From positions 3,895,482 to 3,959,481 of the forward strand of contig NC_030990.1 in assembly GCF_000149955.1 (NCBI RefSeq): a stretch of DNA of 64,000 nucleotides, read 5' to 3'. The notes beneath the pieces were generated by a model. The model saw nothing but the letters and a program-made list of their open reading frames with translations, was not told the DNA's origin and made no database searches. Positions 785-64,000 of the stretch are shown one piece after another. Source of the DNA: Fusarium oxysporum f. sp. lycopersici 4287. Lineage: Eukaryota; Ascomycota; Sordariomycetes; Hypocreales; Nectriaceae. The stretch's first letter is position 1, and every line of letters begins with the position of its first letter. The position numbers and the translations under genes are program-made.

Positions 785-866
785 CGACGCAGGCCTGATT
801 CGAACAGACGCCTCCGAAGAGAATAGATTTCTAGTCTATCGCATTAGACCACTCTGCCACTGCGCC
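785..866 (-). tRNA. tRNA-Ser (anticodon AGA)
   Basis: Read on the minus strand, an 82-nt tRNA is complete. The acceptor stem GGCGCAG (866-860) pairs with CTGCGTC (92-86 of the same 700s block, 792-786), with one G-U pair. An A box (TGGCAGAGTGG) follows. The anticodon stem ATAGA/TCTAT encloses the loop CTAGAAA, so the anticodon is AGA. A long variable arm (TCTCTTCGGAGGC region) marks a class II tRNA, and the T-arm carries GTTCGAATC. The discriminator base is G, as expected for serine. There is no intron. It would decode UCU (and UCC after A34-to-inosine editing). Confidence 0.93.
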
Positions 867-10903: not shown

Positions 10904-11358
10904 GTCTGGAAATAGTTTTACGAATGAAGTTATGAGGACTTTCTTTTACAAATGATGAAGCGATATCTAGTGTGCTTCTTATGACAAAAGCAATGGTGCT
11001 AGCGGTATAGCGAGCGATTACACACTCCTTGACACTTAATATAGTAATTTTCTTTGTGAACCTTCTTGACCACTGACTTGTGATAATTTGTAATGTACGG
11101 CCCTGAAAAGTGCAAGTGTTGGACGGATTCGTCAATCACTTAGCGTCACGTAAACGTCAGATTGCCGATCAGGGTTGCATAGATCAACAGGCACGTCTAA
11201 TCCTTTCAAACCTTATTGCAACATTCCTCACAAAGCGCCGAATCAGGTTAGATACTCCTCGAAACAGAAAGACGAAGACGGGTTGTGTATGGTCATGGAT
11301 ATAATTAACCTGAATCTACCTATACATCGCTGCCAATAAACTCCTCTAAACTTTTAGC
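10904..11358. other. Convergent 3' intergenic region
   Basis: Lies between two genes whose 3' ends face each other, so it should hold both 3' UTRs and polyadenylation signals. No gene seen. Confidence 0.5.
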
Positions 11359-13801
11359 TCATCTTCTCTTACCACCGGCTCTTCCCTTTCCCTTGGGTTT
11401 GCTAGGAGCCGCGTCTTTTCCTCCCTCCTTAGTCGCCCGGCCCTTGGCCCTTGATTTGGCCTGTTCCTTATGTCGGGCCTTCATATCAGCCTCTGACGAC
11501 TTGCCCTTTCTCCACTCTCCGCCACCCTCGGCACGTAGTTGCTTTGCGTCAAGTCGTTTCTTATCCTTGTTGCTTAGCTTGCCCGTCTTCTTCTTCATCG
11601 CCTCTCTCATGCCGTTAAGCTCATCTTTGCCAGCTTGCTTGGACTGCTTCTTGTCGTGTTCAGACTCGAACCATGTTCGCCTAGGTCGTCCCTTGATCTC
11701 AGCCTCATGCTGGATGAGGTTCTCGCCCTTCTTGACTTGCATCTCGACATGGGCGAGCTGCTTCTCTTCCTTTTCTTCTTGCATGATCTCCTCGATTTCA
11801 TCATCCATCTCGTCGATCTGTGCTTGAAGAGCGTCAACCTCTGCAGCCTCAATCTGTCGGCTGACAATCTTGGCACCTTGGGCCTTGCCAGCCTTCACAG
11901 CAGCCTTGACGACCTTGCGGTCTGTCTCAGAAGCTAATGTCAAAGCAGTACCCTTGCGACCAGCACGAGCTGTTCGACCAACTCTGTGGACGTAGATTTC
12001 TAATGACTGAGGCGCTTCGTAGTTGATGACGGTATCGACGCCTTTGATATCAAGACCACGGGAAGCAAGATCGGTGGCTAATAAGTACGCCACCTTGCCG
12101 TCTCGGAAGTCCTCAACACTTGAGATACGCTAAACAGAGTCAGTGATGGTCATAGCTGTAAATCGGAATAAGACTAACCTGTGTTTGGTTCATGCTACCG
12201 TGAAGCTCAGCGCATGAGAGACCGAGTAAGCCAAAGATAATTCGAGCTCGATGAGCTTCCTTCTTTTGTCGGAAGAAGATAATAACTCGCTCCTTGTAGA
12301 GGTTCTTGCAAACATGTGCCAGGTAACCCATTCGCTTCTCCTCTCGGCCAGGGCGCAGGCGAACGAATTCTTGCACCAGTGTAGTAACAGTCTTCTTCTG
12401 AGAATCCACCATAACCCTAGCAGGTTTGTTAAGGCCGATCTTGATAAGACGGTCGACAGTCGATGTCATGGTAGCGGAGAAGAGCATAGTTTGTCGTGAC
12501 TTGGGGAGTGTTGTGAGAATTTCGTTAAGTTCGTCGGCAAAACCGTCCTCAAGCATACGATCAGCTTCATCAAGGACCATAATCTCAACAGTGTCAACGC
12601 TGAAGCTGGCAGAGTTTCGCATGTGATCAATGAAACGACCAGGAGTAGCAATAATAACATCTGGGCGCAACTTCAGCTCAACCTCCTGGGCCTTGAGACT
12701 CAGACCACCGACAGCAAGGGTGAACTTGATATCAGTGAAGGCAGCAAGCTTTGTGGCTACAGCGTGACATTGGATAGCCAATTCACGAGTAGGAGTAAGA
12801 ACAACGACACGGGTGGTGGGAATCTTCTTGGGTCGATATAGCAAACGCTCCAGAATAGGAACGATAAAGGCACCAGTCTTTCCGGAACCAGTGACAGCAC
12901 CACCGACAAGATCTTTACCCATAAGCGCAATAGGAATTGACTTGGCCTGAATGGGCGTAGGCTTGGAGAATCCTACTGTAGCAAGACCACGGAGAATTGG
13001 ACGTGACAGAGACATGGCCTGGAAAGACGAGGCACTCTTCTTGCCAGATGCCTCCTCTTCCTCCGGGGCGAAGAAAGCCTTTCGCTTCGCTTCCTCCTCG
13101 GCGTCCTCCTCATCGTCGCTATCTTCGGAAGCATCGTCATCTGGGTGTCCTGTGGGAGTAGCGACAGAGTCGTTGTCCGATGCAGCATCATCATCGTCTT
13201 CCACGTCCTCATCCTCATCCTCATCCTTGTCTTCAGCTCCAGATTCATCCTCATCATCTTCGTTCTTCTCGTCACCGGATTCCTCAACATCAGAAGCAAC
13301 GTTCATACCGAATGCGTCGTCTGCGAGAACCTCGTCATCATCGTCATCCAGATCAACGTCCATGGCCTCGTTCTCTTCAGCATCGACAGTCTCTTCGGGG
13401 TCAGATTTGCCAAGCTTCTTTTCGCGACGCCTTCGAATAATCTCATCCAGATCAACACCCTTCTTTTCAACGGCCATACCCTTCTTTGCGCCATCGAAAC
13501 CCCATCCCTCGAATTCTACTGTACCAAGGTCGGCAGCTTCCTCAGCGCCAAACTCGAATTCGGAGTCCATGGCACCATCGTCGTCATCATTGAATCCCCA
13601 AATGCCCTCTACGCCATTCTCCTCCTCGTCATCTTCAGGACTGGCTGCACGCTTTGACTTCTTTGACTTTTTGCTGGTCTTGGCCTTCTTCTTGGGAGGT
13701 TCCGCGGTCACTTCCTCCTCCTCGACAGGAATATCGTCATTGTCGTCAATTGTAAAGATGAAATCGTCTTGCGCGGGTTTTCGCTTCTGCAAGTGCGCCA
13801 T
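11359..13801 (-). CDS. DRS1: DEAD-box RNA helicase for 60S ribosome assembly
   Basis: Orthologue of Drs1, a nucleolar ATP-dependent helicase needed for 27S pre-rRNA processing and 60S assembly. Two exons (13801-12179 and 12129-11359, intron 50 nt, GTTAGT donor, TTTAG acceptor) give 797 residues; yeast Drs1 is 752. The N-terminus has Lys-rich nuclear targeting stretches and about 150 residues of Asp/Glu-rich acidic sequence. The core shows a Q motif (GFSKPTPIQ), motif I VTGSGKT near residue 303, PTRELA, TPGRF, motif II DEAD near 409, SAT near 444, and motif [12 protein letters not shown] in exon 2. The tail is a basic coiled coil (Lys/Arg/Glu-rich). Splicing keeps the frame at [16 protein letters not shown]. 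It is head to head with the EB1 gene. Confidence 0.95.
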
Positions 13802-50856: not shown

Positions 50857-53082
50857 ATGACCAAGCGCATTTTCCCCATCAACGACTGGGCTCCTGCTCA
50901 AGAGGTCATGATGGAAGCTCCCTCCGAATCTTCGTCCTTGGGCGTCTCGACGCCTGCCCAGACTGCGAACACCACTCTCCGCCCTGAAGCAGTCGCCATG
51001 CACACAGCTACCCCCCCTCGAAACCGCAGCATGAGCCTTTCTATGCCCTGGCGACGACCTAAATCATTTGCTTTTGGTCATGACCATTCTCATTCGCAGC
51101 ATCTTTCTCGGCATTTTAACGATCTCGCTGTTGACGATACCGAAGACGAGTTCCACGAACTGAACAGCGCCCATCACGAGACCCAGCACCAACACCACTT
51201 CCACACTCCAGGCGCCAAGCAGATCAAAGGCATTTTTCGCCGCGCTTCGCTCTCGATCAACCGAATGGTTCATCGACGACCTTCGATTGCTGAAGATGTC
51301 GAACAACCCGAAACTGGTAGACCTACTACTTCATACAACAATGCGCACTCGACTTGGAGCCGTCTTCGACAAGCAACTGTTCGTCGTTCACGATCAATCT
51401 ATGGATTCGACCTGAAGCATGACCAAAACGCCTACAACTATGAGAACCCTTCACATCTCCCGATTCCCGGTTTCCGTGGCGAGCCACCCGTCATTCCCAG
51501 CAACTCTGGAGCTGCTGCTAAGGCCTCAGCTGCTATGCAGAATGAATACCTCGCCCGCCAAGGCCTCTATAACATGTGGTTGAATCCTAGCACCAACGAC
51601 GAGAGCAACGATCGTGAGAGCGGAATCGGAATTACAGTGACACTTCCTGGAGCCGAGAGTGAGACTGAGATAGAGCAAAATGCTGCTATTAGCACGATCG
51701 ACTTTATCTCCAGACTTCCTGCAGAGCTCGCTATTCATGTCCTCGCAAACCTCGACGCTTCAGCACTCACCAAGGCCAGCATGGTTTGTAAGAACTGGAA
51801 CAAGATTGTGAGCAACCAGCACATCTGGCGTGAGTCTTGTCTTCGCGAGACTACTGCCACTTATGCTACAAGTGAGCCCGTTGCGCCTGGAAGTGGTCTT
51901 GGAGTTCCTGCTATTTCACCGGCGAATGACTGGAAGGACATTTACCGTGTCAAGCAGGAGTTGAGCCAGCGATGGAAGACTGGCAAGGCCAGACCTGTCT
52001 ACCTGAATGGACACAAGGATAGCATCTACTGCCTTCAGTTCGACGAGTAAGTTAATCGGTCCTTTTACAAGTGGTTTACTAACCTGAAAAGGCACAAAAT
52101 CATTACTGGTTCCCGCGACAAGACGATTCGGGTTTGGGATATGCATACCCTTGAATGCACCCTCATTATTGGACCACCCGAGATCATCGCCGAACCCGAC
52201 ATGCTCATTGACGAGGATGGCAACCCTACTCATTTCGCTTCAGGATCCTCCGACAACGAGAGGTCAAACTTCTCTATGCCTCGCAGTACATCATTCCCTA
52301 CACATCACATGGCCTCTATTCTGTGCCTGCAGTATGACGACGAGATCCTGGTCACTGGATCCTCCGACTCTACCTGCATCGTTTACGACGTACGCGCAGG
52401 ATACCGTCCTATTCGCCGACTCCGACACCACACCGCAGCTGTTCTCGATCTTGCCTTTGACGACAAGCATATCGTCACATGCAGCAAGGACTTCAGCATC
52501 TGTGTCTGGGATCGCCACACCGGCGACTTGATAAAGCAGCTTCGGGGACACAGCGGACCTGTTAACGCAGTACAGATGCGGGGCAACACCATCGTGTCTT
52601 GTTCGGGAGATTTCCGCGTCAAGTTGTGGAACATTGAAACAGGCAAAAATATTCGTGAGTTCACGGGGCACACCAAGGGGCTTGCTTGCTCCCAATTCTC
52701 CGAAGATGGCCGATACATTGCATCTGCTGGTAACGACAAAGTTATCCGCATCTGGGATGCCAACACTGGCGAGTGTCTCCGTGAGATGCGCGCCCACGAG
52801 AACCTGGTTCGCAGTCTGCACATAGATAGTGTGAGCGGCCGACTGGTCTCTGGAAGCTACGACACCGACATCAAGGTGTGGGATATGGAGACTGGACACC
52901 AGCTGCTCGACTTTCCCAAGTGGCACGCAAGCTGGGTTTTGAGTGCAAAGAGTGATTACCGTCGCATTGTCAGCACAGGACAGGACCCCAAGATTTTGAT
53001 AATGGATTTTGGTGCTGATGTTGATGGTATTGAGAATATCGAGAGTGCCAGGCCTCTTCAGATCGAGGGAGGGTTTATCTGA
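50857..53082 (+). CDS. F-box/WD40 protein, SCF ubiquitin ligase substrate receptor (FWD1-like)
   Basis: Two exons (50857-52046, 52092-53082; 45-nt intron, GTAAGT donor) give 726 residues. A long disordered N-terminus has Ser/His-rich stretches and basic blocks. The F-box is at about 285-330 (ISRLPAELAIHVLANLDASALTKASMVCKNWN). Seven WD40 repeats follow from about 380 ([31 protein letters not shown] to LVSGSYDTDIKVWDMETG). The F-box would bind Skp1 and the propeller recognises phosphorylated substrates. The layout resembles beta-TrCP/FWD-1 of Neurospora, which targets the clock protein FRQ, but other F-box/WD40 proteins (Met30, Cdc4) are built alike, so I do not assign a symbol. Confidence 0.9.
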
Positions 53083-56073: not shown

Positions 56074-58512
56074 ATGGGGCTTTCGACTATCGTCACGGCC
56101 TCCCTCTTGGCCATGCGCCTCTTCACCCTCCCAGCTTCGGCTGCTCCTCAGGCCATTGAGGTTGAGGTTGAGGTCGCTGCTCCCGTGGCCTCTGTGTCTA
56201 CTGCCGCTCCGGCCTATCCTGCACCCCCCTCATCTGAGCCTGCCACTCCCGAGCCTCCTGCTTACTCGGCTGCCGCTGCTGCCGGTTCTTGGTGGTTGTC
56301 CGACATCAAGCGCCAGGGTGTCGTTGCCTATGGCTCTGCCGACTACAAGATCTTCCGCAACGTGAAGGACTACGGTGCCAAGGGTGATGGTAGCTCTGAC
56401 GACACTGAGGCCATCAACGCCGCCTTCTCTGATGGCAACCGTTGTGGTAAGGGCTGTGACTCTTCTACTGTCACTCCCGCTCTCGTCTACTTCCCTACTG
56501 GTACCTATGTTGTCTCCAAGCCTATTCTCCCCTACTACTACACCCACATGATCGGTGATGTCAACAACCTTCCTGTTCTCAAGCCAACTGCCAACTTTGA
56601 GGGCATGGCTGTCATTGACGTCGATCCCTACAACTCGGACGGCTCCAACTGGCACACCAACCAGAACAACTTCTTCCGACAGGTCCGCAACTTCAAGATT
56701 GATCTCACCGGTATGCCCAAGAGCTCCGGTACTGGTATCCACTGGCAAGTCGCCCAAGCTACCTCTCTTCAGAACATCGTCTTCCAGATGATTGAGGACC
56801 CTAGCGACGACAACAAACAGCAAGGTATCTTCATCGACAACGGCTCCGGTGGCTTCATGACCGACCTCACTTTCATTGGTGGTCGATACGGCGGTTTCTT
56901 TGGTAGTCAACAGTTCACCAGCCGAAACATGACTTTCCGCAACTGCAACACTGCCGTCTACATGAACTGGAACTGGTTGTGGACTCTCAATGGCCTCGAC
57001 ATCTCTGGCGCCAAGGTCGGCATTGACATGACTGCTGGCGGCAACGTTCAGAACGTCGGCTCTATTCTCCTTACTGACAGCAAGATTGCCAACACTGCAG
57101 TCGGTGTCCTGACCAACTACAATCCCGCCCAGCCCGATACCAACGGCACTCTTATCATCGACAACGTCGACATGTCCTCTGCTGTCCCTGTCGCCGTCAA
57201 GGGTGGTGGATCTAGTGCTACTATCCTCCCCGGCAACGCCAAGATTGCATCTTGGGTCCAAGGTCGTGCCTACACCGGCGGCAGTGGTAAAGCTATCCAG
57301 GCCACTCAGACTCCTGTCACCAAGCCCAAGGCTCTTCTCGATACCAAGGGTAACGTCGTCACCAAGAGCAAGCCTCAGTACAACAGTGTCCCCGCTGCCA
57401 ACTTCATCTCCGTCAAGTCAAAGGGTGCCAAGGGTGATGGCAAGACTGATGATACTGCCGCCATTCAGGCTGTCTTCAACAGTGTCCAAGATGGTCAGAT
57501 CGTTTACTTCGACCACGGCGCTTATGTCATTACCGATACTGTTAAGGTTCCCAAGAACATCAAGATTGTTGGCGAGGTCTGGCCTCTCATCATGGCTGGT
57601 GGTAACAAAAACTTCAAGGATCAAGCCAACCCCAAGCCCGTCTGGCAAGTCGGTCAAGCTGGTGATGTCGGCAACGTCGAAATCCAGGACCTCATGTTTG
57701 AGACTCTCGGACCCCAGCCCGGTGCCATCTTGATGGAGTTCAACGTCGCTGGTTCTACTCCCGGCTCCGCTGGTCTCTTTGATGTCCACTTCCGCGTCGG
57801 TGGCTCTGCCGGTACTCAACTCCAGTCTGACACCTGCAAGAAGACTCCCGACGTCAAGACCGAACCCAAACCCGAATGCCTCGGCGCCTTCATGCTCTTC
57901 CACATGACCAAGCAGTCTAGCTGCTACCTCGAGAACACCTGGTTCTGGGTTGCCGACCACGAGCTCGACCTTAGCGACCACTCTCAGATCAACCTCTACA
58001 ACGGCCGTGGAGTTCTGATTGAGAGCACCAAGGGTGCTTGGCTGTGGGGTACCGCTTCCGAGCACAGCGTTCTCTACAACTATCACCTTGAGAATGCCTC
58101 TAATGTCTACATGTCGCTCATCCAGACCGAGACTGCTTACATGCAGGGCAACCCTGACGCGACCGTCCCCTTCACCGTGAACAAGAAGTATTTCGACCCT
58201 GACTTCAAGGCCACCTGCACCGGTACCTCTGAGCGATGTGCCCGTACCTGGGGTCTCCGCGCTGTCAACTCCAAGGATGTCTTCATCTATGGAGGAGGTC
58301 TCTACAGCTTCTTCGACAACTACGACCAGGTCTGTGTCGGCCAGAACAACTGCCAGGACAACATGATCGACATTGAGAGCTCCCAGGTGCACCTTTACGG
58401 CATCAGCACCAAGGCCTCTGTTAACATGGTCAATGTTGATGGCAAGTCGGCGGTCCTCGACAAGGACAACCGCAACAACTTCTGCGCCGCCATCGCGCTC
58501 TTCTCATCTTAG
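56074..58512 (+). CDS. Secreted GH55 beta-1,3-glucanase
   Basis: One exon of 812 residues. A signal peptide (MGLSTIVTASLLAMRLFTLP, cleavage near ASA/AP) is followed by a Pro/Ala linker. Two right-handed beta-helix modules follow, each opening with the same pattern: FRNVKDYGAKGDGSSDDTEAI near residue 93 and ISVKSKGAKGDGKTDDTAAI near 448. This tandem pectate-lyase-like layout is the mark of glycoside hydrolase family 55. Enzymes of this family release glucose or oligomers from beta-1,3-glucan outside the cell or in the wall and act in nutrition, wall remodelling or mycoparasitism. Codon use is strongly biased to C-ending codons, suggesting high expression, and long antisense frames over the gene are a result of that bias. 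Confidence 0.95.
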   Translation: MGLSTIVTASLLAMRLFTLPASAAPQAIEVEVEVAAPVASVSTAAPAYPAPPSSEPATPEPPAYSAAAAAGSWWLSDIKRQGVVAYGSADYKIFRNVKDYGAKGDGSSDDTEAINAAFSDGNRCGKGCDSSTVTPALVYFPTGTYVVSKPILPYYYTHMIGDVNNLPVLKPTANFEGMAVIDVDPYNSDGSNWHTNQNNFFRQVRNFKIDLTGMPKSSGTGIHWQVAQATSLQNIVFQMIEDPSDDNKQQGIFIDNGSGGFMTDLTFIGGRYGGFFGSQQFTSRNMTFRNCNTAVYMNWNWLWTLNGLDISGAKVGIDMTAGGNVQNVGSILLTDSKIANTAVGVLTNYNPAQPDTNGTLIIDNVDMSSAVPVAVKGGGSSATILPGNAKIASWVQGRAYTGGSGKAIQATQTPVTKPKALLDTKGNVVTKSKPQYNSVPAANFISVKSKGAKGDGKTDDTAAIQAVFNSVQDGQIVYFDHGAYVITDTVKVPKNIKIVGEVWPLIMAGGNKNFKDQANPKPVWQVGQAGDVGNVEIQDLMFETLGPQPGAILMEFNVAGSTPGSAGLFDVHFRVGGSAGTQLQSDTCKKTPDVKTEPKPECLGAFMLFHMTKQSSCYLENTWFWVADHELDLSDHSQINLYNGRGVLIESTKGAWLWGTASEHSVLYNYHLENASNVYMSLIQTETAYMQGNPDATVPFTVNKKYFDPDFKATCTGTSERCARTWGLRAVNSKDVFIYGGGLYSFFDNYDQVCVGQNNCQDNMIDIESSQVHLYGISTKASVNMVNVDGKSAVLDKDNRNNFCAAIALFSS

Positions 58513-59063
58513 GAAGATGAAGTCAACGCGCCACCTTATGGTGTGCCTCCTTACGCATAGCCAGCGCGAATACCCGAGCGACACGTGCTCATTGCTGATT
58601 ATGTGCTTTGAACGTGCGTCTGATTTTCTTTCTCTTTCTTCTTTTTTCCATAGGGTCTTTTTGTTCCAGGATGGAACTGGAGTTTCGGATAGTAAGCGAT
58701 GAAAAACGCTTTTGATAACTGCACCTTACCTTTGAGTAGACAGGGTAGCTGAATGAATCAAGTTGAGACAAGAAATGTGACCCCCAAATGTGACATTTTT
58801 GTGAGTGTGATATGCTGTGCTGTGATGTTATGACGTAAGGGAGCCAGATGTGATGTTTGACCGCGGGAGGTTGTGGTCACAAGGCGGTTGGTGGACAGAG
58901 CCCAAGAACAAAAGAACAAACAACCACATGAAACAAGAGTAGACTAGAAAGAGCTTGAATAAAACGAAAGTCAATCTTGTATACAGAGTATGTTTTGTCT
59001 CTGTATGAGAAGAACTACGAAAAGGCAAAAAGATGCTGGTGGAAATCGAACCATCAAATCAGC
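58513..59063. other. 3' flank of the GH55 gene
   Basis: 3' UTR and AT-moderate spacer up to the first of the repeated ncRNA elements, whose B-box-like sequence is at 59041-59052. No gene seen. Confidence 0.45.
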
Positions 59064-59161
59064 AAAAGCGAAGCCGAGTCCCGAAGGAGATGAGAGGCGG
59101 AGTGATGAAAGGAAGAGTTACACCACTCCGCCAAAGTTCAGCTGTTTTTAGCTACTTCGCT
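59064..59161 (-). ncRNA. Repeated Pol III-type ncRNA element, copy 1
   Basis: Minus-strand start AGCGAAGTAGCTA (59161 downward) pairs with CTTCGCT (59073-59067), followed by TTTT. Inside, GGCGGAGTG pairs with CACTCCGCC (9 bp), and a 3' hairpin TCC-UUCG-GGA lies before the closing strand. The upstream box is degraded: TGATAA at 59190-59185, the right distance (29 nt) but not a good TATA. A B-box-like GGTTCGATTTCC lies 11 nt past the T tract (59052-59041). The best explanation is a small structured RNA gene transcribed by RNA polymerase III; a mobile element with inverted ends is the alternative. Confidence 0.6.
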
Positions 59162-59492
59162 GAAAGAGAGAGCAATAGAATGAATTATCAAGGCTGATTC
59201 CATGTCTTGGAGGAAGGTTAGCGTGGCACCGTGGCGTTGATGTTGCCTGGTGTTGGTGCAGGGGTTATGTCGATCCATGGCTGAACGACAAGCAAGGTTA
59301 GTATGCTTAGCCCAGCAGATTCAGGCACAGAGAACAAGACTCTGTATGGTTAAAGAGAATAAGTAAATTATTAGTTTCTTTTATCTATGCCTCGCTTAAA
59401 ATTGAGAACATTGTAAAATCGAGAGGGGAAAGATGCAGCATGGTTGCAAAAAAATAGAGGCTCAAGGGTAGCTAACATTCGAACTCATGACC

Positions 59493-59574
59493 AAAAAGCG
59501 AAGTCTCCCGAGGGAGAGGTTTCTTTGGAGATGCAACCGGAGTACAGTTGAGTTAAAGATGTAGCTACTTCGCT
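59493..59574 (-). ncRNA. Repeated Pol III-type ncRNA element, copy 2
   Basis: Start AGCGAAGTAGCTAC at 59574; closing strand CTTCGCT at 59503-59497 followed by T5. A 3' hairpin UCUCC-CUCG-GGAGA abuts the closing strand directly. TATAGA sits 29 nt upstream (59603-59598). Past the T tract, GAGTTCGAATG (59486-59476) is B-box-like, six nt away. The body between is unlike that of copy 1, so only the ends and control elements are conserved. Confidence 0.68.
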
Positions 59575-59848
59575 GGGAGTACTGCATGTTGGTCTGGTCT
59601 ATAAGGCTGTGGTGTTGGCTGAACTAGGGTGTCTCGCAGCACATCTTTCCAAGCTGGAGCTTTTGCAAGTCAACGGGAAGCTTGCCTGACTGAGGGGATG
59701 TTATTACAACAACATCAAAAAGGTATCTATATATTTAATATGTCATGTTTAAAAGTATGTCTCTCAGGTCCAGAAAAGTCCAAAAGAAGTGGTCAGTATG
59801 GCCATCCATGGTCATATTGCGCCTCGAACTGCAGGACTCTAGCTTGGC

Positions 59849-59933
59849 AAAAAGCGAAGGCTTAACATCCGGAGATGGTCAAGCAAGGTTGGTTCAGTTG
59901 AGCTATTGAGCACGTATTTCTCGCTACTTCGCT
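59849..59933 (-). ncRNA. Repeated Pol III-type ncRNA element, copy 3
   Basis: Start AGCGAAGTAGCGAG at 59933; closing strand CTTCGCT (59859-59853) and T5. The 3' hairpin is strong: GCTTGAC plus ATC pair with GATGTTAAGC around one bulged C and a UCCG loop, about ten pairs. TATATG lies 28 nt upstream (59961-59956). The downstream B-box-like element is GCAGTTCGAGGC (59832-59821). Confidence 0.7.
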
Positions 59934-59961
59934 GGTAGCTGTTTGTTTGCCTTTGCATATA

Positions 59962-60545
59962 AGCGACTGTTCTTTGTCGCTGTTGTTGTTGGGTGGAGAG
60001 TTGTGGTGATGTGCTGCAGGGGTTGTTAGCGGGTGTGGGGTACTGGAGCCGGCGTTGAGTCACCTCGCCGAGATGCATCTGTGAGGACCCCTGCAGTCAG
60101 GACCGTGTTGACTTGTCTGACACTAATAGGGAGAGCGACGTCTCTGTTATTCAGCGTAGCTGTGTCTTTCAGTAATTAATCTCAACTCCTCAGATACCTG
60201 GGTACTAGTCAAGGCGAGTAAGATTTCCTTCCGAGGTTTGTATTGGGACGAACGACTTGATTTGCTAAGCTATATAATGGCTATGTAGATATCTATAACT
60301 CAATGAGTACTTCAGAATGCAAGTTGACGAGCAGATTAAAATACAATGTAAAGTCTTATTTACTTCATGATCTTACGTGAACACTGAACAGTCACGTTAA
60401 TAGTGAACGGTTGTTGTGGCATAAGGTTATGCCTAATTTGACCGCCTGCTGTACAGTATTCATTCGGCTAGATCTCCCGCGGTTGGTGCCACATGACTCC
60501 CCGACAGCTCTCATCTTCACATACTCATCGTATTGCTTCAGCAAA
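59962..60545. other. Spacer between ncRNA copy 3 and the conserved protein gene
   Basis: Upstream flank of copy 3 and promoter of the gene at 60546; no further copy of the element found. Confidence 0.4.
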
Positions 60546-61423
60546 ATGTCATGGACAAGGAAAAAGACAATAGGGCCTGCACCACCTCAACCTTCTTTCA
60601 CGCCCAAGTTTCCAGAGCTACATGAGGAAAAGCGGGCTTCTAATAATGGCCGGGGCACTGATGATGCTCTCACTGTGACCCGAATCCTTGAAGCAGCCGA
60701 TATCCCATGCTGTATAGTCAGTACATGTGCTCTCATATTTTACGGAGCAGCCAGAGTGCGTCACGTATGTTTTTCGGTCACTCAAATATGGATGATTTCG
60801 TTGACGCCCAATAGCACTGGGAAATCTGTGTCCCGACACATCTCGTTGATAAAGCGGTAGCATTGTTACAGTCAGAACCTCATTGTGCCAGTTACCACCT
60901 CGCGGAACCCTGGGACACACCAAGCTCATCTCTATTGCATACTTGGCACCGGTTCAAACATAATGAAACCGACTTTTGCTTTGTCATTGTTCCCGACAGG
61001 GATGTCCACATTGTCTGTGAACCCCCCAACTTCACTCGCAGCCTTCGAGGACTACCTTATCCCAGACTAGACGTCTTTATACAAAGCTGTCTAGACTCTG
61101 GAGATGAACTACAGCTCTGCGATGTGATTGACGGTACTGACTTGCCGGAGGAATGGGGAGAAAAGAACCTTGAACTAGACGGTACAAACGACGTCGAATG
61201 GGCTAATGAAGCAACTAGGAGGAGTGATGAATACAAAGGCGGGAAGTATCCCAACTGGTCGCCTTTTGCATGCAATCGAAGAAGCAGAAGAGCTATGTGG
61301 CAGTCCTACGTACGAACAAAGAGGGATAGAATGGATTGGACCAAGCCGAGCCATGTGTTTACTACCCAGTATCATATTATCGATACTCCAGATTCGTGGA
61401 CTGTTCTCTCAGATGATTACTAG
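60546..61423 (+). CDS. Conserved fungal protein, possible nucleotidyltransferase-like fold
   Basis: Two exons (60546-60764, 60815-61423; intron 50 nt, GTATGT donor, CAATAG acceptor) give 275 residues. After a Pro-rich start (KKTIGPAPPQP), the core reads LTVTRILEAADIPCCIVSTC, ALIFYGAARVRHHWEICVP and then a beta-rich part (DFCFVIVPDRDVHIVC). The C-terminus is basic and aromatic (RRSRRAMWQSYVRTKRDRM; HVFTTQYHII). The pattern of a helix, a C/S-rich strand, then ALxFYGxxR and a WEIxVP strand recalls fungal proteins with a minimal nucleotidyltransferase-like fold, but catalytic acids are not obvious. It sits between the ncRNA copies, on the opposite strand. Confidence 0.6.
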
Positions 61424-62239
61424 AAGCAAGGAAGACGGGAAACATGGCTGCACTTACCAGTTATACAGACTCACCGCAGTAGGCCTTACGCGACGTTTTA
61501 TGGACAGACCGGTATTGCTAAGAAGTCCATTCGGTCTCGACTTTGACCTTGCACAAGCGTAATCGGTACTCGAACTTTATCTCTTGTGTGTTTAAGCCCA
61601 TCAAAACCATCACCAATCGCCCACGTCCTTCACAATGTCTCAACCAATCACCACCACCCTCACCACCATCCAGGCCAGTGTGTAATTTTCGCTGGAAGCG
61701 GACCTGGGGAGCTCACGGCCTTGATCCTAAAAGACAAAGCACTGAGGTAAATTTAGTATAGCTTAGGTAACTTTGTAAGACTTTATAAATATCCTTGCAT
61801 TCAGAAAAGAATGTTCGTGGACATTGCTCTCTCAAACCAGTCGTTTTGATGTAAGCATATATGCTGCGATATCTAAAATCGTCACTCAGCCATTGTTAAA
61901 AGAAGGGGCCCTCGAACTTATCACGCCTCATTTCGGAACAACTCAATAATCACAAGTGCCAATCATTGCCTTGACTTGCCAGGTCGAAGGAAGCTCCCGT
62001 ACATAGATGAAAGGAAAGAAAGCGATTAGACTATTTGGATATAATTTCCCTATTCAGAAAAAATGGAAGGGACATCGGAGAGTAGAGTGAGCGTCTGTCG
62101 AAGAAGTGGCACCGAGAGTTTTGCAAGGTATTCTAGATTAAAAAGTGTGATAAGACGGTTCGCAAGGAGATAAAAGGGTCCTTCAACTAGAGTAGAAGAT
62201 GAGATGGTAAAAAGCAAAGGGGCGCATGTCTTGCAGCTT
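61424..62239. other. Intergenic region
   Basis: 3' flank of the conserved protein gene and AT-rich spacer before the B-box-like element of ncRNA copy 4. No gene seen. Confidence 0.4.
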
Positions 62240-62265
62240 GGACTCGAACCTGTGATACTAATGAC

Positions 62266-62363
62266 AAAAAAAGCGAAGGGAGCGTTCTGGGATTCCGGAC
62301 TCCCCGCTCGACCATGTTAGTAATTGGGTATATCCAATATTTGGTGTGTGCAACTACTTCGCT
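62266..62363 (-). ncRNA. Repeated Pol III-type ncRNA element, copy 4 (best control elements)
   Basis: Start AGCGAAGTAGTTG at 62363; closing strand CTTCGCT (62278-62272) followed by T7. TATATA lies exactly 29 nt upstream (62392-62387). Past the T tract, GGTTCGAGTCC (62250-62240) is an exact match to the Pol III B-box consensus GGTTCGANTCC. The 3' hairpin is GAGCG/CGCTC around GGGA/TCCC, including a 16-mer (62304-62289) that is also in copy 6. This copy has the strongest promoter, terminator and B box and is the best candidate for an active gene. Confidence 0.75.
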
Positions 62364-62618
62364 GGTGGCCAAATCTTTTGTTTTGGTATATAAGGGTATG
62401 TAGGTCGCTCTTAGAGTTATGTGCGTGAACCTACTGCTCGTGGCTCCGGGGCTGTGGCCTGGGGGTACGCGAAGAAACAAGAGAATGTATAACATTAGTA
62501 TGTTAGTTACGATTGGGGAACTCTCATATTTATATTAGATACACCAAAAAAAGAAGAATGAGTAAGGACATGTTATAATAGGAGCTCAGGAGTTCGAACA
62601 TGCGATGTGACGAACAGC

Positions 62619-62694
62619 AAAAAGCGAAGGCAGCGAGGCGTTTGCTCCCCGCTGCGTTATACTTTTGCTTTGTATGTATTTCAGCTACTTCGCC
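62619..62694 (-). ncRNA. Repeated Pol III-type ncRNA element, copy 5
   Basis: Start GGCGAAGTAGCTG at 62694 (first pair becomes G-U) with closing strand CTTCGCT (62629-62623) and T5. TATATA lies 29 nt upstream (62723-62718). The 3' hairpin is long: GCAGCGGGG pairs with CCTCGCTGC (nine pairs with one G-U) directly before the closing strand. The B-box-like GTTCGAACTCC (62599-62589) follows. This is the shortest copy at about 76 nt. Confidence 0.73.
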
Positions 62695-62882
62695 GGGAGG
62701 AGTGTCTGAGATTGTAGTATATAAGCTTATGATCACTGTCCGTAAGGCTACGACTCTGAACTTACTGTTGGGGACACATGGGCAGGGGCTCGACAGAAGA
62801 AGTAAGGTATGTAGGCTCTATCACGGCATAATGCACTCTCAAAACCCAAGTCCAGCCAATTCAAGACCTTTGTGCATTTGAG

Positions 62883-63174
62883 GTGCTTAAATCGAAACAT
62901 TATCGTTGCATCACTTTTGTTGATCTAGTTGTTCACGACCAACAGGTGCTGTATTCAGCCGCTTGTTCCGGTTGGCTCACACATCCTTCAGCCCCTCAAC
63001 ACCTCGGTATCAGTCCACTACAGGCCAAAGTACTGGGAGATCTGCATGAACTTTCATCACATCATACATCTCTTGCACAATTCCCAGGAATACTGCACCC
63101 CCAAATCATTATTCAAAGGTATGGCAAGCCATTCATTATATCCTTGGGGCTCAGGATGATAACCACCGATAGAT
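62883..63174 (+). other. Possible decayed coding region upstream of the 63175 gene
   Basis: Two overlapping frames look protein-like: one (ending 63185) with VLYSAACSGWLTHPS and PQIIIQRYGKPFIISLGLR, the other (62929-63159) with HYRPKYWEICMNFHHIIHLL and SLFKGMASHSLYPWG. The second shares the frame of the gene at 63175 but is separated from it by TGA TAA. It may be an eroded 5' part of that gene or a missed intron. Confidence 0.3.
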
Positions 63175-63573
63175 ATGAGCCATAACGATACCGAAACCCC
63201 GGAATATCTTTTCCTGGATATTCCTATGAAGCAGGTTCTCGAGCAAGATGGGATACAAGTTGAGGAGCCTTGGGGGCGTTTATATATTAATGCCATTCAT
63301 GAAGGAAGGTTTGGAGACGTGATATGGGCTCGCTATCATATGCTGGGCGATGTGGAGGATGGAAAGGTTGAAGGCGAGGATATGACCGTGGCTGAGAGTA
63401 TCAAGCAAGACGCAATCGGATATAAGCAGCATGACCGGGAGGACTTCGACAAGGCTGTGTCATTCTACGAGGAGCATATGAACAGCGGTGATGGACACCC
63501 TGAGGTTCTTGAGATCATCTTTGGGGTTGATAGAGAGGATGTCAGTGGGATCAAACTCCCTCCAGTTGGTTAA
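63175..63573 (+). CDS. Hypothetical 132-residue acidic protein
   Basis: An ATG-started frame of 132 residues with balanced composition: MSHNDTETPEYLFLDIPM, then DGIQVEEPWGRLYINAIHEG, a charged middle, and a C-terminal EVLEIIFGVDREDVSGIKL. It is acidic and soluble, with no signal peptide or membrane segment. No domain recognised. The same frame upstream is protein-like beyond two stops, so this may be the 3' part of a decayed gene. It runs towards ncRNA copy 6, which is on the opposite strand. Confidence 0.45.
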   Translation: MSHNDTETPEYLFLDIPMKQVLEQDGIQVEEPWGRLYINAIHEGRFGDVIWARYHMLGDVEDGKVEGEDMTVAESIKQDAIGYKQHDREDFDKAVSFYEEHMNSGDGHPEVLEIIFGVDREDVSGIKLPPVG

Positions 63574-63812
63574 ATACTTGACGAAAATAACAGAGTCGTG
63601 CTGTCAGGGTGATTGTTCTCGAGTTAACGCTGGACTCAACCGCAGCTTGACTGACGCTACCAATTGAGAGTGTTGTACATCGTGATAGAACCTAGAAAAG
63701 AAAAACAGAGTATACTGTAAGTGATGAAAAGAGGAAGAGCTAAAAGAAAGACAAAAAACTAGAATGTGATGGCCATCACAGGACTCGAACATAGAGTCAT
63801 AAACACTGTAGG

Positions 63813-63891
63813 AAACGAAGGGTGGATCCGGGATTCCGGACTCCCGCTACACCAAGTGGTTCAGCTTGTGTTTCTTTTTAGCTACTTCGTT
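63813..63891 (-). ncRNA. Repeated Pol III-type ncRNA element, copy 6 (compensated stem)
   Basis: Start AACGAAGTAGCTA at 63891 with closing strand CTTCGTT (63820-63814): relative to the other copies, the second pair is A-U in place of G-C, so both strands changed together and the stem is kept. TATATA lies 28 nt upstream (63919-63914). The 3' hairpin (GGTG/CACC and GGGA/TCCC) contains the 16-mer at 63845-63830 shared with copy 4. The T tract is only TTT, a weak terminator. The B-box-like ATGTTCGAGTCC is at 63792-63781. Confidence 0.65.
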
Positions 63892-64000
63892 GAGTGTGAT
63901 TGATTTAATTTGATATATAACGAAGCTTGCAGGCTGATGATGCTGGTTGTCTGGTCGAAAGGGATTGTTGCTGCCTGGGCGTGCAGGCAGCAGCCGAGGC

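Follow-up and report, generated by a model that had tools for sequence, protein, structure and literature searches.

A one-strand cluster of predicted RNA polymerase III genes for small hairpin RNAs in Fusarium oxysporum

Six predicted small RNA genes at the right end of the window

The window analysed here is a stretch of 64,000 nucleotides from Fusarium oxysporum f. sp. lycopersici 4287 (a genome of 61.2 Mb in 71 contigs), located at C5:3895482-3959481, where C5 denotes contig NC_030990.1. Near its right end, a preliminary description had placed six small RNA genes with signals of RNA polymerase III (Pol III) on the minus strand. We confirmed all six elements (E1 to E6) at those places and found that they belong to a larger family; positions below are those of the window unless a contig is named. 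We refer to the six window copies and one copy on C9 as A-type, and to the relatives right of the window and their scattered kin as array type. All copy counts come from this one genome, and those made genome-wide are lower bounds.

The six predicted RNAs, and all signals assigned to them, lie on the minus strand. E1 (59067..59161) has a 7-bp terminal stem, AGCGAAG/CTTCGCT, which encloses inner hairpins and is followed by T4 (T runs of the window copies are counted including the last T of the stem). Its TATA-like box GATAATT (59183..59189) starts at -28, an exact A box, TGGCGGAGTGG, lies at 59123..59133, and a B box, GTTCGATTTCC, stands downstream at 59041..59051. E2 (59497..59574), with the same stem and T5, carries a short 3' hairpin that abuts the stem; its TATA box TATAGAC (59597..59603) starts at -29, the A box TAACTCAACTG (59545..59555) is weak, with two mismatches, and the downstream B box is GTTCGAATGTT (59474..59484). 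E3 (59853..59933) again has this stem and T5, with TATATGC (59955..59961) at -28, an A box with one mismatch, TAGCTCAACTG (59895..59905), and the downstream B box GTTCGAGGCGC (59819..59829). E4 (62272..62363) shares the stem and ends in T7; its TATA box TATATAC (62386..62392) lies within CTTATATACCAAAA, which is exactly the promoter motif of the neighbouring array described below, its A box TGGTCGAGCGG (62304..62314) is exact, and its downstream B box is GTTCGAGTCCA (62239..62249). The stem of E5 (62623..62694) is GGCGAAG/CTTCGCT, adjoined by a 9-bp 3' hairpin and followed by T5, with TATATAC (62717..62723) at -29, an A box with one mismatch, TAACGCAGCGG (62649..62659), and the downstream B box GTTCGAACTCC (62589..62599). 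E6 (63814..63891) has the stem AACGAAG/CTTCGTT, a paired change at position 2; TATATAT (63913..63919) starts at -28, the A box TGGTGTAGCGG (63844..63854) is exact, and no T4 follows the stem, T6 being found beyond the downstream B box GTTCGAGTCCT (63780..63790).

The closing stem that had been described pairs at seven of seven positions in every copy, as AGCGAAG/CTTCGCT in four and as GGCGAAG/CTTCGCT and AACGAAG/CTTCGTT in one each; it measures 7 bp (8 in one copy), and the longest inner hairpin, of 12 bp, is that of E1. The TATA-like box likewise holds for all six; its first base is at position -28 or -29, and the copy at 59161 has GATAAT. So does the GTTCGA element resembling a B box, which begins 12-23 nt past the stem. 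The T tract said to stand straight after the stem is borne out in five copies (T4, T5, T5, T7 and T5 in E1 to E5). The hairpins, a 3' one having been reported for each copy, vary in strength (fold z against shuffles of -5.1, -2.8, -1.9, -2.0, -3.0 and -2.7 for E1 to E6). The bodies are most alike in E4 and E6 (z = 4.3), followed by three pairs at 2.1-2.7, and the remaining eleven pairs lie below 2.

A neighbouring array and scattered copies

A search with R1, a covariance model built from 12 sequences and holding no TATA box, identified an array of 17 copies to the right of the window on the same strand (C5:3959952-3965788, locus L011), with the promoter motif CTTATATRYCAAAA; 15 of the 17 match at an E value of 1e-7 or better. 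The first array copy lies 674 bp past the last window element, outside the window, and the array copies are 217-505 bp apart among themselves. Window and array together hold 23 copies on one strand at a spacing of 217-2430 bp, and R1 found no further copies in the approximately 13 kb beyond the array (the rest of L011, and L012). R1 matches many array copies on the antisense strand too, their stem being nearly self-complementary; TATA box and T tract settled which strand they are on. Judged from sequence, the six window elements are the divergent end of this 23-copy cluster. E2 by itself scores only 12.3 bits with R1 (E = 1.7), which is no evidence taken alone, and an R1 match at window 11274-11369 (E = 0.57) was taken as chance.

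The chance level of sequence patterns was judged against reversed-pattern controls genome-wide or against shuffles. A pattern of stem and B box, CGAAGTAG-N45..75-CTTCG-N2..32-GTTCGA, recovers the same seven genome matches as the bare stem RRCGAAGTAG..CTTCGYT, six of which lie within 5 kb; these are the six window copies and the one on C9, and the reversed control of the pattern with B box yields none. A de novo scan of 84 kb for TATA box, 7-bp stem, T run and B box found nine loci (five inside the window, the others in the adjoining 20 kb to its right) against none in its reversed control. A loose pattern, TTATA..GTAG..GTTCGA, occurs five times in the window, and 100 shuffles averaged 0.03 occurrences, the pattern having been made after the elements were seen.

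Seven further array-type copies are scattered over C1 (two), C4, C7, C9, C11 and C13, with R1 scores of 52-93 bits. They were found by DNA searches with two array copies and by pattern searches; the C11 copy (from the first loose search) and those on C7 and C13 (from a second) were accepted on their stem, T run and B box and not on the pattern match. The A-type copy on C9 has TTATATATC, the stem, TTTCTTTTT and GTTCGATTCC, and a decayed copy on C10 (L080) has lost the 3' half of its stem. In all, the family comprises at least 31 copies and one decayed copy: 23 in the cluster, seven scattered array-type copies and the A-type copy on C9. The six genes originally described are thus present, but as a count they fall short of the 23 in the cluster and the 31 in the genome.

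Promoter signals

Besides the TATA-like box and the downstream B box, the window copies carry an internal A box of tRNA type, which is exact in three of six (E1, E4 and E6), has at most one mismatch in five and has two mismatches in E2. None of 5000 sets of dinucleotide shuffles reached three exact A boxes among six (mean 0.013), nor did any reach five of six at one mismatch or fewer. The A box of the window copies starts at +20 to +50, further inside than in the array type. The gap from A box to B box is 49-71 bp in the six window copies and 49-82 bp in nine of ten copies measured, with 93 bp in the C11 copy; the available sections of PMC11346459 give 30-60 bp as the optimal gap for TFIIIC.

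We compared these signals with those of 30 of the 63 tRNA matches in the same genome, several of which are copies of one tRNA. A TATA box at TFIIIB distance is found in five of the six window copies, with a near-TATA in the other, against two of the 30 tRNA loci. A run of T4-T8 lies within 40 nt in 28 of the 30 tRNA loci, and T4-T7 is therefore a plausible terminator in this genome.

In the array, the TATA box stands at -25 to -32 in 16 of 17 copies (all of which the TATA motif had brought up as well), and the A box is exact in 15. Among the seven scattered array-type copies, five have the TATA box at this distance (three of the seven were found through TATA patterns), all have an exact A box, and all have GTTCRA near the stem (a B-box pattern had led to three of them). 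Because some copies were found via TATA or B-box motifs, these shares may be too high; R1 and the DNA searches demand neither. Copies elsewhere that lack the TATA spacing or the T tract had been named as a possible refutation of the six genes: most copies keep both, and some do not.

According to the sections of PMC11346459 consulted, the U6 gene of yeast, SNR6, has a TATA box, a gene-internal A box and a B box beyond the terminator. The putative promoter of the family is laid out likewise, with a TATA box, an A box inside the gene and, in those copies that have one near the stem, a B box past the predicted terminator. Order and kind of the promoter parts agree, as do the TATA box at about -30 and, in five of six window copies, the T tract before the B box. 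The two differ in that SNR6 makes the spliceosomal U6 RNA, whereas here a 23-copy cluster for hairpin RNAs has no U6 match in Rfam, and in that 12 of the 17 array copies lack the near B box.

Two U6-like loci were seen elsewhere in the genome. L008 (C4:3413432-3413598) scores 61.6 bits and L009 (C7:3890980-3891082) 36.6 bits, below the U6 cut-off. By eye, each has a B-box-like stretch within an intron-like insert; L009 has TATATA upstream and GAGTTCGACTTCC inside the insert, and was counted for a U6-type promoter layout.

Conservation of the terminal stem

For the array type, RNAalifold predicts a single terminal stem of 18 bp with an unpaired loop, recovering 18 of the 20 stem pairs. In 12 aligned array-type sequences, 95.4% of the cells pair, compared with 42-64% in slid controls. 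Both sides have changed in 15 cells, belonging to five pairs of the 20-pair stem, a level reached by none of 500 shuffles for cells and by nine of 500 for pairs. The 23 R1 matches contain 40 doubly changed cells, spread over 13 pairs, which none of 500 shuffles reached; this set includes the 12 sequences used to build R1 and one antisense match, in an alignment fitted to the model. The predicted terminal stem of the array type is thus kept through compensatory change. The unbroken stem is 10-12 bp long in some array-type copies and up to 20 bp in others, and by eye the C4 copy has gained four bases in one strand of the stem, matched by four in the opposite strand. All 12 aligned copies have the loop motifs ACCTA and CCGC-N-CCTA unchanged. 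The A box of the array type falls within the 5' arm of the predicted helix, and promoter and structure would thus constrain each other.

Comparison with known RNA families

Rfam scans at gathering and relaxed thresholds found no fitting family, Y RNA and U6 included. Two sub-threshold matches scored far below their gathering scores, and one of these, mir-2071 (E = 1.9), lies on the opposite strand of E1 and was taken as chance. We also considered a tRNA origin and rejected it: A and B boxes are common to both, but the elements have no tRNA fold, and ARAGORN (bacterial setting) and Rfam find only the tRNA at 785-866 in the window. Array-type sequence strings occur in no paper of the literature library searched; A-type strings occur in ten papers, none of them apparently on fungal small RNAs as judged by their listed entries. 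Topic searches of the literature gave no fungal family of this kind among the matches listed, the sections of PMC5640933 (on 15 fungal RNA motifs) that were consulted make no mention of one, and collections of viral and prokaryote sequences held no match for an array-type string.

Metazoan Y and vault RNAs are small Pol III RNAs with paired ends, an open or variable loop, a U tail and an A box in the 5' part. The RNAs predicted here resemble them in size (approximately 70-110 nt) and in each of these traits, their own Pol III type being a prediction; paired ends closing an open loop, the mark of a Y RNA, are found by RNAalifold in the array type and as the 7-bp stem in the window copies. Y RNAs differ in that there is no Rfam match here, no TROVE/Ro60 protein in the genome, and a B box that lies outside the RNA. 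The predicted RNAs are best read as built like Y RNAs without being members of that family, no Ro protein having been found.

The Class I RNAs of dictyostelids, as described in the available parts of PMC7919456, are approximately 60 nt long, with a 6-bp stem, a CTGT 3' end and a DUSE element. They too form a clustered multi-gene family with a terminal stem kept by compensatory change, a variable body, a conserved upstream element and possibly Pol III transcription. Here, by contrast, we find a TATA box, stems of 7-20 bp in intact copies, a CTTCG-like end with a T tract, and lengths of 72-105 nt. In design, Class I RNAs come closest to the family, yet it differs from them in stem length and 3' end.

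Interpretation and alternatives

We think it probable, though far from certain, that the 23-copy cluster is transcribed by Pol III into hairpin RNAs of approximately 72-105 nt, which would likely act as protein-binding RNAs of small ribonucleoproteins. That the window elements are small RNA genes with Pol III-type signals, as first proposed, is upheld by A boxes beyond chance, the same-strand array of 17 copies, the scattered relatives and the stem covariation in those relatives; from these we infer Pol III transcription, and with it transcript ends, protein partners and function. TFIIIC would bind the A box within the gene, together with the downstream B box of those copies that have one, and TFIIIB would assemble on the TATA box near -30, in the manner of the yeast U6 gene; Pol III would thereby be recruited. 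Transcription would start near the conserved stem and stop at the T tract, and La would hold the 3' U tail. Shared proteins may bind the terminal stem and the motifs of the loop, which for the array type are ACCUA and CCGCWCCUA, with the variable parts giving each RNA its own specificity.

For the broader proposal, we regard the odds as even. It holds that these RNAs would constitute an undescribed fungal class of Pol III RNAs, corresponding in fungi to the Y, vault and Class I RNAs: 31 genes, most of them clustered, which share a terminal helix that covaries, ACCUA and CCGCWCCUA as protein-binding motifs of the loop, a repeatedly used U6-type promoter and, in the array type, an A box that is part of the helix. 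To our knowledge, few Pol III RNAs are known from fungi beyond tRNA, 5S, U6, RNase P RNA and signal recognition particle RNA. If the proposal is true, a 31-copy family in a well-studied plant pathogen, its promoter and fold backed at the sequence level, would supply a new class of structured RNAs, a U6-type promoter layout would serve a whole family, and the loci are defined for direct tests; if expressed, these RNAs would be a fungal family absent from the RNA-family library searched (Rfam).

Several observations weigh against these readings. Genome-wide, the bare stem is not enriched (seven matches against seven in the reversed control), the loose TTATA..GTAG..GTTCGA pattern gives 22 matches against 139, and the second loose pattern gives 70 against 58; because of the 22 against 139, the loose promoter pattern was treated as a finding aid only. 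Without the B box, the scan of 40 kb yields 20 loci against six in the control. Near the stem (within 30 nt), GTTCRA is present in only five of the 17 array copies, and the remainder have it approximately 80-90 nt on, have TTCGA only, or show none. Two array copies, those with the TATA box at 3963343 and at 3960511, appear decayed. Of the six window copies, one is without the T tract: E6, the copy at 63891, has T3 only (TTTCC), and T6 stands past the B box. In the A-type stem (the six and the C9 copy) there is one paired change, not above shuffles (145 of 500), and support for the A-type fold therefore comes from pairing, the layout of the promoter and kinship. Shuffles of the C9 A-type copy fold as well as the copy itself (z = -0.6). 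By eye, the CCGC-N-CCTA loop motif is altered in the C11 copy, the array-type C9 copy and the copy at 3961230. A six-frame, exon-by-exon search of the genome for the Ro60/TROVE domain (PF05731) found no match at E 0.001.

The strongest rival reading, which we nevertheless hold to be unlikely, is that the copies are Pol III-transcribed precursors of microRNA-like RNAs (milRNAs), cut by Dicer into silencing RNAs of 20-25 nt in the way of the major milRNAs of Neurospora. PMC3547838 reports that the latter are Pol III products, from loci with TATA-like elements and T tracts, some of which also have putative A and B boxes, and milR-1 to milR-4 share with our family that they are fungal Pol III-type loci with TATA-like elements and T tracts. 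Array-type stems as long as 18-20 bp would suit such precursors, and F. oxysporum carries Dicer and Ago genes (PMC4139310, in the sections available). The Neurospora loci, however, yield small silencing-type RNAs, whereas the window copies, known from sequence alone, are short-stemmed, with the 7-bp terminal stem (8 in one) and at most the 12-bp inner hairpin of E1. A comparison that tolerated small errors matched none of 13 F. oxysporum small RNAs from Table 2 of PMC4139310 to the final 6 kb of the window, to the copies on C7, C11 and C13 or to the A-type copy on C9; nor does any match the array, exact matches only being considered there and the C1, C4 and second C9 copies lying outside the comparison. 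The conserved arm sequence needs no milRNA explanation, because it coincides with the A box.

A much smaller probability attaches to mobile elements resembling short interspersed elements (SINEs), by which the cluster would consist of functionless copies of a Pol III-driven retroposed repeat. Repeats with A and B boxes do occur on C5 and six other contigs, with the decayed copy on C10, and the copy at C1:5670546 (L076, C1:5670450-5670760) has a direct repeat of 19 nt on its two sides (20 nt if one mismatch is allowed) that resembles a target-site duplication. Such duplications had been named as grounds for rejecting the six genes, and none was found at the six window copies, whose flanking repeats (one mismatch allowed) are 8-11 nt long against 7-12 in controls; among the scattered copies tested (C4 left out), the repeat on C1 is the one case in seven, the six others having 7-10 nt, and cross-pair controls gave 6-12. 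That repeat suggests an occasional insertion mechanism, though TATA and B box belong to the unit that was copied. Against mobile elements, these two signals have been copied along despite their place beyond the ends of the predicted transcript, copy number is low (31 and one decayed, a lower bound), and the stem is kept by compensatory change, unlike in the decayed C10 copy. E4 has no DNA relative, a genome search with it returning E4 itself as the sole match. Longer direct repeats within the array are consistent with whole units, each with its B box, having been duplicated in tandem.

Very improbable as well, and by a shade the more so, is a chromatin boundary that binds TFIIIC, like an ETC site, in which the A and B boxes would matter as DNA and any RNA would be incidental. 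The clustered B boxes on one strand would fit it, and the invariant columns of the seven A-type copies lie nearly all in the start of the stem, the start of the TATA box and the B box. Against it stand the pairing at the RNA level, kept by paired changes in 13 pairs, the loop motifs invariant in 12 of 12 aligned copies, and the 12 of 17 array copies without a near B box.

Finally, a chance assembly of motifs or ordinary low-complexity repeats can be dismissed: single motifs are frequent in the window (32 GTTCGA and 91 TTATA on both strands), and the bare-stem and loose patterns do not clearly exceed their reversed controls genome-wide, but the stem with B box (seven against none), the de novo scan (nine against none) and the 17 related copies adjoining the window refute it.

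Neighbouring genes and other small RNA loci

The cluster is adjoined by a gene for a pectate-lyase-fold protein (Pect-lyase_RHGA_epim; 56074-58512, plus strand), and an F-box protein is encoded at 50857-53082 (plus strand), the frame downstream of it being WD-repeat-like by eye. Between E5 and E6, an open frame of 132 amino acids without a Pfam match (63175-63573, plus strand) may be a lineage-specific gene. The only tRNA found in the window by ARAGORN and Rfam is a tRNA-Ser with the anticodon AGA (785-866, minus strand).

Six of the 13 published F. oxysporum milRNA or small RNA sequences in the part of PMC4139310 used here occur exactly in L039, L040-L050 and L059, five of them in loci with tRNA matches and one in L059, which is tRNA-like by eye; several may therefore be tRNA fragments. 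Three small RNA loci that the same part of that paper places on supercontig 2.19 (319690, 1054067 and 73418) overlap tRNA matches at the same coordinates of C12.

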